Source: Syntrophotalea acetylenivorans (GTDB lineage: Bacteria > Desulfobacterota > Desulfuromonadia > Desulfuromonadales > Syntrophotaleaceae). From it: a stretch of DNA of 64,000 bases. Location: NCBI RefSeq assembly GCF_001887775.1, contig NZ_CP015519.1:620001-684000 (forward strand), given 5' to 3'. The notes under the pieces are model-generated. The model had not been told where the DNA came from. It made no database searches and saw only the letters and a list, made by a program, of their open reading frames with translations. Positions 60,367 to 64,000 of this stretch are shown here, in pieces; position 1 is the first letter of the stretch, and each line of letters starts with the position of its first letter. A program made the position numbers and the translations under genes.

Positions 60367-60837
60367 ATGAAACAAAAAAAAGTATGGTTAGGCATTATGT
60401 TCTGCTCACTTTTAATCTGGACCGGTAATGCTTTTGCGGATGGACCGGCATCCCAGCGCCAAAACCGCCAGCAACATCGCATCGAACAGGGTGTGCGCAA
60501 TGGTAATATCACCAGGTCTGAACTGAAACATCTAAGAAAAGAGCAACGTCATATTGCCAATTTTAAACGACGGGCACATCGCGACCACCACATAACTCGT
60601 CACGAAGCGCGGCGCCTCAACCGCATGCAGGATCGCGCCAGCGACAATATTTATCGCTACAAGCACAATAAGGCCAAACAACCGCGCATGTATCGTCATG
60701 CCCATAAACAGCATAAAAATTATCCGGCACCACGAGTTCATCGTCACTGCAACGTCGACCGATATATTGGCAGTTCGATCAACGGCATTTTTGCCCAGCC
60801 GGGAATATCCCTGGCCTGGAACATCGCCCTTGATTAA
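60367..60837 (+). CDS. Exported His/Arg-rich protein of repeated helices
   Basis: 156 residues. Signal peptide ends at NAFADG. The mature part has a duplicated unit: RIEQGVRNGNITRSELKHL and, about 33 residues on, RRAHRDHHITRHEARRL, each a helix with an N-G-N-I-T/H-H-I-T turn reminiscent of an EF-hand-like helix-loop. The tail is His-, Lys- and Tyr-rich and has one Cys. GGAGGAAG precedes the ATG. A periplasmic metal or anion binder is a guess. Homologues with the repeat are not named to my knowledge. Confidence 0.8.
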   Translation: MKQKKVWLGIMFCSLLIWTGNAFADGPASQRQNRQQHRIEQGVRNGNITRSELKHLRKEQRHIANFKRRAHRDHHITRHEARRLNRMQDRASDNIYRYKHNKAKQPRMYRHAHKQHKNYPAPRVHRHCNVDRYIGSSINGIFAQPGISLAWNIALD

Positions 60838-60866
60838 TCGGCAACCCTCTAAACATCTAAATCCAA

Positions 60867-60914
60867 TTACACAAGTGCCACTCTTGGCTGCAGCCAAGAG
60901 TGGCACTTGTGTAA
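60867..60914. repeat. Perfect 48-nt palindrome
   Basis: TTACACAAGTGCCACTCTTG is followed by GCTG at the centre and by its exact complement, 24 bp per arm with no loop. A further AATCCAAT…ATTGGATT pair flanks it with an offset. No T-run follows on either strand, so it is not an ordinary intrinsic terminator, though it could end transcripts. It begins 29 nt after the His/Arg-rich gene. Confidence 0.95.
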
Positions 60915-61124
60915 AAACAAACAGATTGGATTCATGCGAAAAACCTTAGTCCGCGCATTAACCAATCTCTAACTATGAGAGCTACGGTATTACCAAAAAC
61001 GATTTGGCGTTGTTTCAGCGGGACACCTTTTATATGTTAACCCTCACCCGTTTGCCACTTAGCTTTATAATCTTATTAGGTTGATTCAGGACGAAATCAT
61101 GATCAGGAGCCCTATCTCGGCAAA
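60915..61124. other. Gene-free stretch between palindrome and ligase gene
   Basis: About 210 nt with no ORF, RNA gene or terminator that I can see; it lies between convergent genes. Confidence 0.4.
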
Positions 61125-63437
61125 TCAATGCCGCTGGCCTTCAAGCTGATTCAAATGCCGTCTAAGTTCCAGGTCCTCAGGGGTGTGAATAAGAATTTTG
61201 CGATATATCTCTGCTGCCTTGAAAGTAAGCCCCAAACGCTCGTGCAAACGTCCGGAAACTTCCATCATGGCTAGATCTTCGGGATAAAGACGCGTTCCAA
61301 CCAATACAGTATTAAGAGCTTTTTCATATTCTTGTCTGGCTTCAAAAAAGGACACCATACGCCAAACAACATCAGGCTGAAAAGATTCAGCGCCCTGAAG
61401 AATACGCAATGCCTTGGAATAACTGTTCGCAGCAAGTTCAGGCAGATCTCTTTCTAACAGATAATCACCAAAGTCGATATAACATTGAGGATGCCCTGCG
61501 AGGACGACTGCAACTTCGGTGACCTCGAGTCCCTTATCATTTAAAAATCTCAGCCATTCCAGGGTCCGTGGAGGATCTATGGCGAGGATCTGTCGAACAT
61601 GTTTCAGCGCAGCCGTTTTTTGACCCTTTGTCAAAAAACGGCTGACAAAGTCGACATGCAAAACCTGATTGCTCCAGTCGTTCTCCAGGCCGTGTTGCAT
61701 CAATTTTATAGCGAGATCTTCCTGGCCGGCATCGGCCATGTACATCCCCATCCGATAGGTTTCAAGACCGGCCAGCGGATCGAGTCGCAACGCTTTTAAA
61801 AAATGGGACATGGCTCTCCGGGTTTGTCCCTGTTGCAACAGGCCCCAGGCAAGATCTTTGCGATATAACGCTTCCCAGGGATCATATAATGCAGCATGCT
61901 TCAACAGTCGCAGCTCGGACAAAGACCCCGGTCCGCCATGAGCATCAGCGTTTTTAGCAGAATTAGCCAACCCCTTAGCCAGAATCCCGCCACCATGAAA
62001 CAACAAAGACAAAATCACCAGGCCACCAGCGACCATTGTTGCCAGAGAATAACGCCGGTTGTAGGTTGCCGGTCGAAAATCATCCTTGTCTGATGCTTGA
62101 TAGGATGATTGAGAGGACGCTGACACCAGGCCAGCCAGTGCAAAAGCGTAATATTGAAACCAAACTGGAATCGACAGCTCCCAAAAAGCTACCGCCAGGA
62201 CGAAAAACAACAGACCTCCTAAGCTGCCGCCAAATAGATAGATCGCCAGTTTATTACGACGCCTTCGCCATTTGGGCCACGATCGCCAGAGTAAAATTGT
62301 AAAGAAACCGATTAAAACGATAATAGACAGCCATCCAATTTCCGTTCTGGCGCGAATTATCAAAGGTCCGGAAGTAGTTGAAAAATCATGCCCCGCTCCC
62401 TGCACTTGTTGCCGCTTATAAACCTTTTCATAGGTCCCTAAACCCGACCCGGTCAATGAGTATTGGGAAGCCAGTTCCCTGGCGATTTCATGATCGGTTT
62501 TTGTAATTAGTTTTTCTGGGGATTTTTCATTATCTCCACCGTTATACAGGCCGATACTCACCGCACTTACGAGCAGCACTAAAATCAAGGAGAAATACGG
62601 GATTTCCCGGCGGCCTCTCTTTTTGATAAACAGCAGAGCCCAGAGCAGACCCAAGGCTAACAAATAAAAGAGCGCATTGCGCCAATCCAACAAAGCCAGA
62701 CCAAAGGGTACTAATAATGCTGAAAGTGCAACAATCAAGAAATGATCTTGTACCGTGGCTTGCCAATAACTGTTTACCCTTTCCTGCAGGGTTCCGTAGC
62801 GGGAAGACGGTCGAAAGGCCAGCATCGTTGCAAGGGCTACGGGACCAATCAGCAACAGTAACAGACCGAGGAAGGCCAGATCATTTTGCAGAAAAACAGC
62901 GAGGTTGTTATCTATTTCAATATATTCGGAAATGAACTGTTTTATAAAATACAAAGCGATGGTTGCAGCCGCCACTCCACCTCCGATTCCAGTTAACCAG
63001 AGGGCTGCCTGTTTGAGTCGATGTCGGTCTTGCAACAACTGAGCAGTCAGAAGATAACAGGCCATTCCGGAGCAAAGTGTAAAAATGGCCTGCAAGGTCC
63101 CCTTGGGATATAAAGACAACCTCATCCAAGGATCCGTTACCAGTGCACCTACACTCTGTTGATAGATCTGCCAGGTATGGGGAGATAAGAGTTTCACCAG
63201 GAAGGCCGGTAAAGGAACCAACTGCAGCAGCCCCCAGCCGACCAGTATCAGCAGGACGTATGACCCCGGTGGCAACTCAAACGATTCGTCGCCATGGCGT
63301 TTTTTCCAGAACCAGAGCGCCAAGGCAATGAGCGGCATCACCTCAATTGCTGTGCCCAGCCAATCCGATCCCATAATTTGGTTGAATGGCGCCAATAACA
63401 ATACTGCGCCAATGAGCAACACGAGAAATTTAGCCAT
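61125..63437 (-). CDS. O-antigen-ligase-like membrane protein with C-terminal TPR
   Basis: 770 residues. About 10-12 membrane helices in the first 490 residues, with the long periplasmic loop of Wzy/WaaL proteins around residues 320-370 (SLTGSGLGTYEKVYKRQQ). The final 250 residues are tetratricopeptide repeats (AALYDPWEALYRKDLAWGLL…). This is a common WaaL/PglL-like fusion in polysaccharide loci. The start at 63437 is 7 nt after GGGAGG and overlaps the CpsB-type gene by 8 nt. Confidence 0.85.
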   Translation of the reverse strand: MAKFLVLLIGAVLLLAPFNQIMGSDWLGTAIEVMPLIALALWFWKKRHGDESFELPPGSYVLLILVGWGLLQLVPLPAFLVKLLSPHTWQIYQQSVGALVTDPWMRLSLYPKGTLQAIFTLCSGMACYLLTAQLLQDRHRLKQAALWLTGIGGGVAAATIALYFIKQFISEYIEIDNNLAVFLQNDLAFLGLLLLLIGPVALATMLAFRPSSRYGTLQERVNSYWQATVQDHFLIVALSALLVPFGLALLDWRNALFYLLALGLLWALLFIKKRGRREIPYFSLILVLLVSAVSIGLYNGGDNEKSPEKLITKTDHEIARELASQYSLTGSGLGTYEKVYKRQQVQGAGHDFSTTSGPLIIRARTEIGWLSIIVLIGFFTILLWRSWPKWRRRRNKLAIYLFGGSLGGLLFFVLAVAFWELSIPVWFQYYAFALAGLVSASSQSSYQASDKDDFRPATYNRRYSLATMVAGGLVILSLLFHGGGILAKGLANSAKNADAHGGPGSLSELRLLKHAALYDPWEALYRKDLAWGLLQQGQTRRAMSHFLKALRLDPLAGLETYRMGMYMADAGQEDLAIKLMQHGLENDWSNQVLHVDFVSRFLTKGQKTAALKHVRQILAIDPPRTLEWLRFLNDKGLEVTEVAVVLAGHPQCYIDFGDYLLERDLPELAANSYSKALRILQGAESFQPDVVWRMVSFFEARQEYEKALNTVLVGTRLYPEDLAMMEVSGRLHERLGLTFKAAEIYRKILIHTPEDLELRRHLNQLEGQRH

Positions 63438-64000
63438 TAATATCCCTCCCGGCAACAATCGCCGCGGGATTAGTTGTCACCAGGCTTCGGGCGGCTTCCT
63501 CACCGATAATGGCTGCCGCAGCCTTTGTTCCTTCAGACAACACCGGCAACCGATGGGTGGCCGAATGACCGTCACTGGCCAAAAAGTGAACCTGCCCCAT
63601 TCTTAACAGATAAGCAGCACAATCTCTCGAATCAGCACCAAAATCCCCAACCAGGCTACCGGCGGTAACCTGCACAAGACAACCAGCGTCGACCAGACTG
63701 AAAAGAAGTTCAGGGTCACGAATAATAGACGGATTACGTTCCGGATGAGTAATGATTGGCCGTAACCCGGACAGCAGTATCTGAAATACAAGTTCGTTAG
63801 CGTTATGTGGAAGATGACTATGGGGAAATTCGAGCAAAAAGTATTTACCACCATTGATGGTATAACGGGCCAACACATCAGGGGGCAGCATGGCGCTGAC
63901 ATCAGCGCCTGTTACAATGAGCAGTGGGTAACCTTGTTTTTTCAGGACCGCATTAAAATCGGCCACCTGCTGTTGCAGAAATTGAGGAGAATGCACCTCT
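63430..64000 (-). CDS. CpsB/CapC-type (PHP) phosphotyrosine phosphatase, N-terminus cut by window edge
   Basis: 190 residues in view. VTGADVSAML, LLEFPHSHLP, RPIITHPERNP and HFLASDGHSA are the metal-binding motifs of PHP-fold CpsB/YwqE phosphatases, which remove phosphate from the tyrosine kinase of capsule export. The frame runs off the right edge; an internal GTG at 63996 is not the family start. It lies just before an O-antigen-ligase-like gene, so a polysaccharide locus continues to the right. Confidence 0.9.
   Translation of the reverse strand, partial: EVHSPQFLQQQVADFNAVLKKQGYPLLIVTGADVSAMLPPDVLARYTINGGKYFLLEFPHSHLPHNANELVFQILLSGLRPIITHPERNPSIIRDPELLFSLVDAGCLVQVTAGSLVGDFGADSRDCAAYLLRMGQVHFLASDGHSATHRLPVLSEGTKAAAAIIGEEAARSLVTTNPAAIVAGRDING

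Follow-up and report, generated by a model that had tools for sequence, protein, structure and literature searches.

A perfect 48-bp palindrome between two convergent genes of Syntrophotalea acetylenivorans as a predicted bidirectional terminator

The closest described counterparts of the element reported here are the bidirectional intrinsic terminators, for which a section of a Term-seq study (PMC12207403) names A-rich upstream tracts as a feature and mentions a dependency that links U-tract strength with hairpin stability. As for the symmetry of such stems, part of another study (PMC8794818) describes template switching in replication as a process that can both create and mend perfect stems. 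In the stretch of the S. acetylenivorans genome analyzed here (64,000 nucleotides, hereafter the window), the longest perfect inverted repeat with arms up to 60 nt apart is a palindrome of 48 bp, situated between two convergent genes. On the basis of its sequence and that of its relatives, we read it as a predicted bidirectional terminator common to both genes, with a probability of roughly three in four.

The palindrome and its neighboring genes

The features of the locus, in window coordinates, are the following:
60367..60837, plus strand: gene of a 156-aa His/Arg-rich protein (open reading frame; matches in 9 of 20 related genomes)
60860..60867, no strand assigned: left half of an outer repeat pair, AATCCAAT, whose last base is the first T of the palindrome
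60867..60914, no strand assigned: 48-bp perfect palindrome, RNA hairpin from either strand (inverted-repeat search and fold)
60925..60932, no strand assigned: right half of the outer repeat pair, ATTGGATT, 10 nt past the palindrome
61125..63458, minus strand: convergent TPR-repeat gene (open reading frame and domain search)

The two arms of the palindrome (60867-60890 and 60891-60914) are 24 nt each, 100% complementary and separated by a spacer of 0 nt, and with uniform base composition about 2e-10 palindromes of this kind would be expected by chance per 64 kb. A preliminary description of this DNA, which had reported a perfect zero-spacer palindrome of 24+24 nt after the His/Arg-rich gene, is hereby confirmed, the palindrome being far beyond chance, and the interval 60855-60935 from which it had been reported contains both the palindrome and the outer pair. 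When either strand is transcribed, the RNA can form a stem of up to 22 bp closed by a UGCA tetraloop. It is because these four loop bases are self-complementary that the DNA is perfectly palindromic, and the earlier term "loopless" consequently holds for the DNA only. The fold of the 111-nt stretch 60840-60950 reaches -46.7 kcal/mol (z -8.55), and none out of 200 shuffles was as low. Two properties expected of a terminator are thereby seen at this locus, i.e. a stable RNA hairpin with G-C pairs shortly 3' of a plus-strand stop codon (29 nt after that of the His/Arg-rich gene), and a position between convergent genes (60367-60837 on the plus strand and 61125-63458 on the minus strand), where 210 nt separate the palindrome from the TPR gene stop codon. 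A known RNA family was also considered and rejected: a search of RNA families gave seven matches at E <=1, none at its gathering score, and four of them, namely three microRNA models (best E 7e-5) and one archaeal sRNA model (E 0.2), overlap the palindrome and were regarded as fortuitous hits on a bare hairpin.

The His/Arg-rich protein has a signal-peptide-like start, as judged by eye, and no Pfam match at E 0.001. Its gene was present in 10 out of the 21 genomes searched, that of the window included, and these 10 represent 3 of 12 genera, and all ten translations carry the C-terminal motif QPGx(S/A)xAW. The TPR protein has a hydrophobic N-terminal part, again by eye, and is probably located in the membrane. 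Within its coding sequence there is a further perfect inverted repeat at 61610-61644, with arms of 15 nt and a 5-nt spacer (CAGCCGTTTTTTGAC/GTCAAAAAACGGCTG).

The outer pair around the palindrome (AATCCAAT / ATTGGATT) does exist, as had been noted before. A flank match of at least 8 occurred in 53 out of 20,000 flank shuffles, a post hoc figure, as the pair was noticed first. The pair was not seen in any of the three orthologous hairpins described below, where the longest flank matches were 3, 5 and 6 nt, and a role as a second functional layer was rejected on account of its absence from all three.

Orthologous hairpins and conservation of pairing

Of the four further genomes in this genus, three (G001, G003 and G004) contain both flanking genes, in each case on one contig and in the same convergent order, with partial genes at contig ends in G001 and on the G004 contig. 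The fourth genome (G002) gave no match to either gene and is for that reason uninformative on the hairpin. In G001 (L008), G003 (L010) and G004 (L009) the gap between these genes contains a hairpin whose core is CCACTC...GAGTGG. The automatic hairpin list (perfect arms of at least 9, loops of at most 12) gave only L010, and the other two were recognized by the core in the sequence and then folded. When folded, the three show loops of 3-7 nt, partly accompanied by inner mismatches, and of the four hairpins in the genus the window alone has one that is perfectly palindromic. The G004 hairpin comes after a dispersed repeat and is shifted away by about 200 nt.

The dispersed repeat, of about 175 bp, starts near a CATCCGGAAACTCCGGATG hairpin and in G004 separates the orthologous hairpin from the His/Arg-rich gene (L009:480-690, G004:C349), while G003 has a partial copy in the same gap (C47:499-617). 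A copy in the genome of the window is found e.g. at G000:C1:2639712-2639885 (L055), and the five genomes of the genus gave at least 23, 34, 45, 40 and 48 matches, pieces included.

Fold-back synthesis can yield perfect palindromes, and an artefact of inverted duplication had been suggested for this one. We regard such an artefact, of assembly or of amplification, as extremely improbable, because three other genomes hold a hairpin of different letters between the same two genes, and because the pairing in these orthologues spans both the inner and the outer stem.

Outside the genus, a hairpin was seen in five of the six genomes with the His/Arg-rich gene (L011-L015), with a T-run either within its 3' arm or following it, and the sixth (L016) has none within the cut-offs of perfect arms of at least 9 and loops of at most 12. 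According to the preliminary description, an ordinary terminator with loop and T-run in related genomes would have spoken against its view of the palindrome. Half of this was found within the genus: all three orthologues do have a loop, but only 4-6 T in the best 8 nt. A contig scan with the His/Arg-rich protein as query returned no relative. When the neighboring oxidoreductase subunit was used instead, the two nearest records among the best 80 loci (94 and 93%) were Desulfuromonadales MAGs, and the hairpin core was found among these 80 only in L061 and L062, which add no new evidence since they are the contigs of G001 and G004 again.

Conservation of pairing was analyzed in an alignment of the four genus sequences, using the 22-pair stem of the window's version. 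The resulting figures are to be read with the small number of sequences, their relatedness and the origin of the structure from one of the four in mind: 92.0% of the alignment cells were paired, vs 29.5-48.9% in slid versions, and both this value and the covariation score were matched by only 1 out of 500 shuffles. Ten of the 22 stem pairs are invariant, three changed on one side, seven changed on both sides and two differ only by unpaired cells. As many cells changed on both sides were seen in 4 out of 500 shuffles, and as many such pairs in 12, while further pair types were a weak measure, with 132 out of 500 shuffles as high. The mid-stem reads AAGUG/CACUU, AAAUA/UAUUU, AGACG/CGUCU and AAGAG/CUCUU in the four genomes, and the hairpin center is different in each of them. 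These paired mid-stem changes are what selection on an RNA hairpin would leave, whereas in a DNA-binding site the letters themselves would be expected to be conserved.

This bears on another proposal, namely that the palindrome is a target at the DNA level for a recombinase, an integrase or some dimeric protein. The perfect dyad symmetry of the DNA is in keeping with such a site, which we nevertheless consider very improbable, given that letters change in pairs between the relatives while pairing stays and that the center differs in all four genomes. Moreover, the recombinase target of the preliminary description gains no support from copy number or mobility. The palindrome occurs at a single place in its own genome (3,218,469 bases in one contig, both strands searched), with all other matches at E 2 or worse, so that the further copies which were to be looked for are lacking, and it has no match in collections of plasmids (72,556 records) and phages (50,697 records). 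A mobile or dispersed palindromic repeat was rejected on the same grounds.

A covariance model built from the four hairpins and searched against 14 genomes of the family, with up to the best 150 candidates each, recovered its own four hairpins (4.8e-15 to 6.2e-18), the reverse strands of which reached 1.5e-5 or better. Among the matches listed, all others were at 7e-5 or worse. Five of these weaker matches were examined (one each in G000, G002 and G010, and two in G001) and turned out to be different hairpins, one of them between ORFs called convergent (L057) and four not. As the other matches are all weak or different hairpins, the element is a local feature kept in the genus and not a repeat family.

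U-tracts and long hairpins in the same genome

By sampling 20 stretches of the genome in addition to the window, 464 kb in total, we found 29 hairpins with perfect arms of at least 12 and loops of at most 12. The palindrome has the longest arms (24), followed by arms of 21, 20, 19, 19, 19, 18, 18, 17, 17 and 17, and loops of 0-1 nt recur in four other hairpins with arms of 15-18. Similar hairpins thus form a series, with the palindrome at its extreme. Seven of the ten others with arms of at least 17 are, by a simple ORF call, situated between convergent ORFs, compared to a convergent share of 47 out of 282 among all gaps of at least 30 nt (binomial p 3e-4), the latter count coming from a slightly different setting of the same ORF caller. 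Together with the synteny, the genus-wide hairpin and the compensatory changes, these long hairpins in convergent gaps lend support to one of the options raised beforehand, i.e. a transcription stopper for convergent genes.

The absence of a T-run, also pointed out in the preliminary description, holds true: near the end of the stem, the best stretch of 8 nt has at most 4 T on the plus strand (ACTTGTGT) and 5 T on the minus strand (TTGGATTT). The ten other long hairpins each have 5-7 T of 8 on both strands, and out of all 28 others, 12 have no more than 5 T on the better strand and 10 no more than 4 on the poorer, most of them with arms below 17. In a terminator consensus scan the palindrome was terminator-like only on the minus strand, against a background of 6 such sites in 2 kb where 2.6 were expected.

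With a U-tract this weak, intrinsic termination without helpers is not assured, which makes a hairpin protecting 3' ends the main rival. The polymerase would then be stopped downstream by Rho or another factor, and the hairpin itself, no terminator, would block 3' exonucleases and so define the mature 3' terminus of one mRNA or of both. Such a role would suit a very stable stem whose U-tract is weaker than in all ten other long hairpins sampled, whose pairing is preserved where the U-tract is poor, and which leaves a long gap of 210 nt to the stop codon of the minus-strand gene. We consider it rather unlikely all the same, as in symmetry and convergent placement the palindrome resembles this genome's further long hairpins, with their terminator-like T counts, and as one strand of the G001 orthologue carries 6 T in 8.

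As a bidirectional terminator, the palindrome would present the same hairpin (22 bp, UGCA loop) to a polymerase from either side, and owing to the outer stem ACACAAG/CUUGUGU both strands would have some A on the 5' side and a modest content of U on the 3' side. Termination would probably depend on the great strength of the stem, perhaps with the aid of helper factors. That long, U-poor and nearly fully double-stranded hairpins of this genus, the palindrome and its three orthologues among them, should stop transcription from either side through stem strength and accessory factors, and not through a U-tract, is a speculative extension to which we give little credence.

Origin of the perfect symmetry and comparison with known systems

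A short-loop hairpin was probably present at the same place already in the ancestor of the genus. The inner segment of the S. acetylenivorans version, CUUGGC-UGCA-GCCAAG, differs in both arms from the three sister hairpins, and it would be here that both arms were altered and the loop became the self-complementary UGCA. Arm-to-arm copying by template switching may have made the palindrome perfect in this way, and stepwise paired changes would serve equally well.

The preliminary description had further held that perfect palindromes of this size are unstable in most hosts. This is overstated for 48 bp: the failure to be kept in Escherichia coli is reported, in the relevant part of one source (PMC4057610), for palindromes above 200 bp, and fork-linked cleavage by SbcCD was, according to a portion of another (PMC3315005), detected solely with artificial palindromes that exceed the natural ones in length. 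It is also stated there (PMC3315005) that any closely spaced inverted repeat whose hairpin SbcCD recognizes could be a starting point of inverted duplication, and therefore some risk may exist at 48 bp. The available text of a third source (PMC7999016) gives no length threshold for palindromes.

Comparison with relatives thus makes a striking perfect palindrome explicable. Selection most probably acts on the RNA stem as its unit, the missing loop being an accident at the level of the species, and the locus adds one more probable case of hairpins in convergent gaps that evolve by paired changes. It is an ordinary hairpin of a known kind, most probably a bidirectional terminator, whose stem is unusually perfect and whose U-tract is poor. 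The joint departure of both inner-segment arms from the sister genomes resembles quasipalindrome correction, with the difference that the comparison here covers only four extant sequences. The compensatory stem changes between relatives have a parallel in those described, in part of PMC5381666, for terminators of Bacillus cereus. Like terminators of convergent genes, the hairpin is situated in a convergent gap and usable from both strands, but it differs from bidirectional intrinsic terminators in its longer perfect stem (22 bp), its self-complementary loop of 4 nt and its weaker U-tract.
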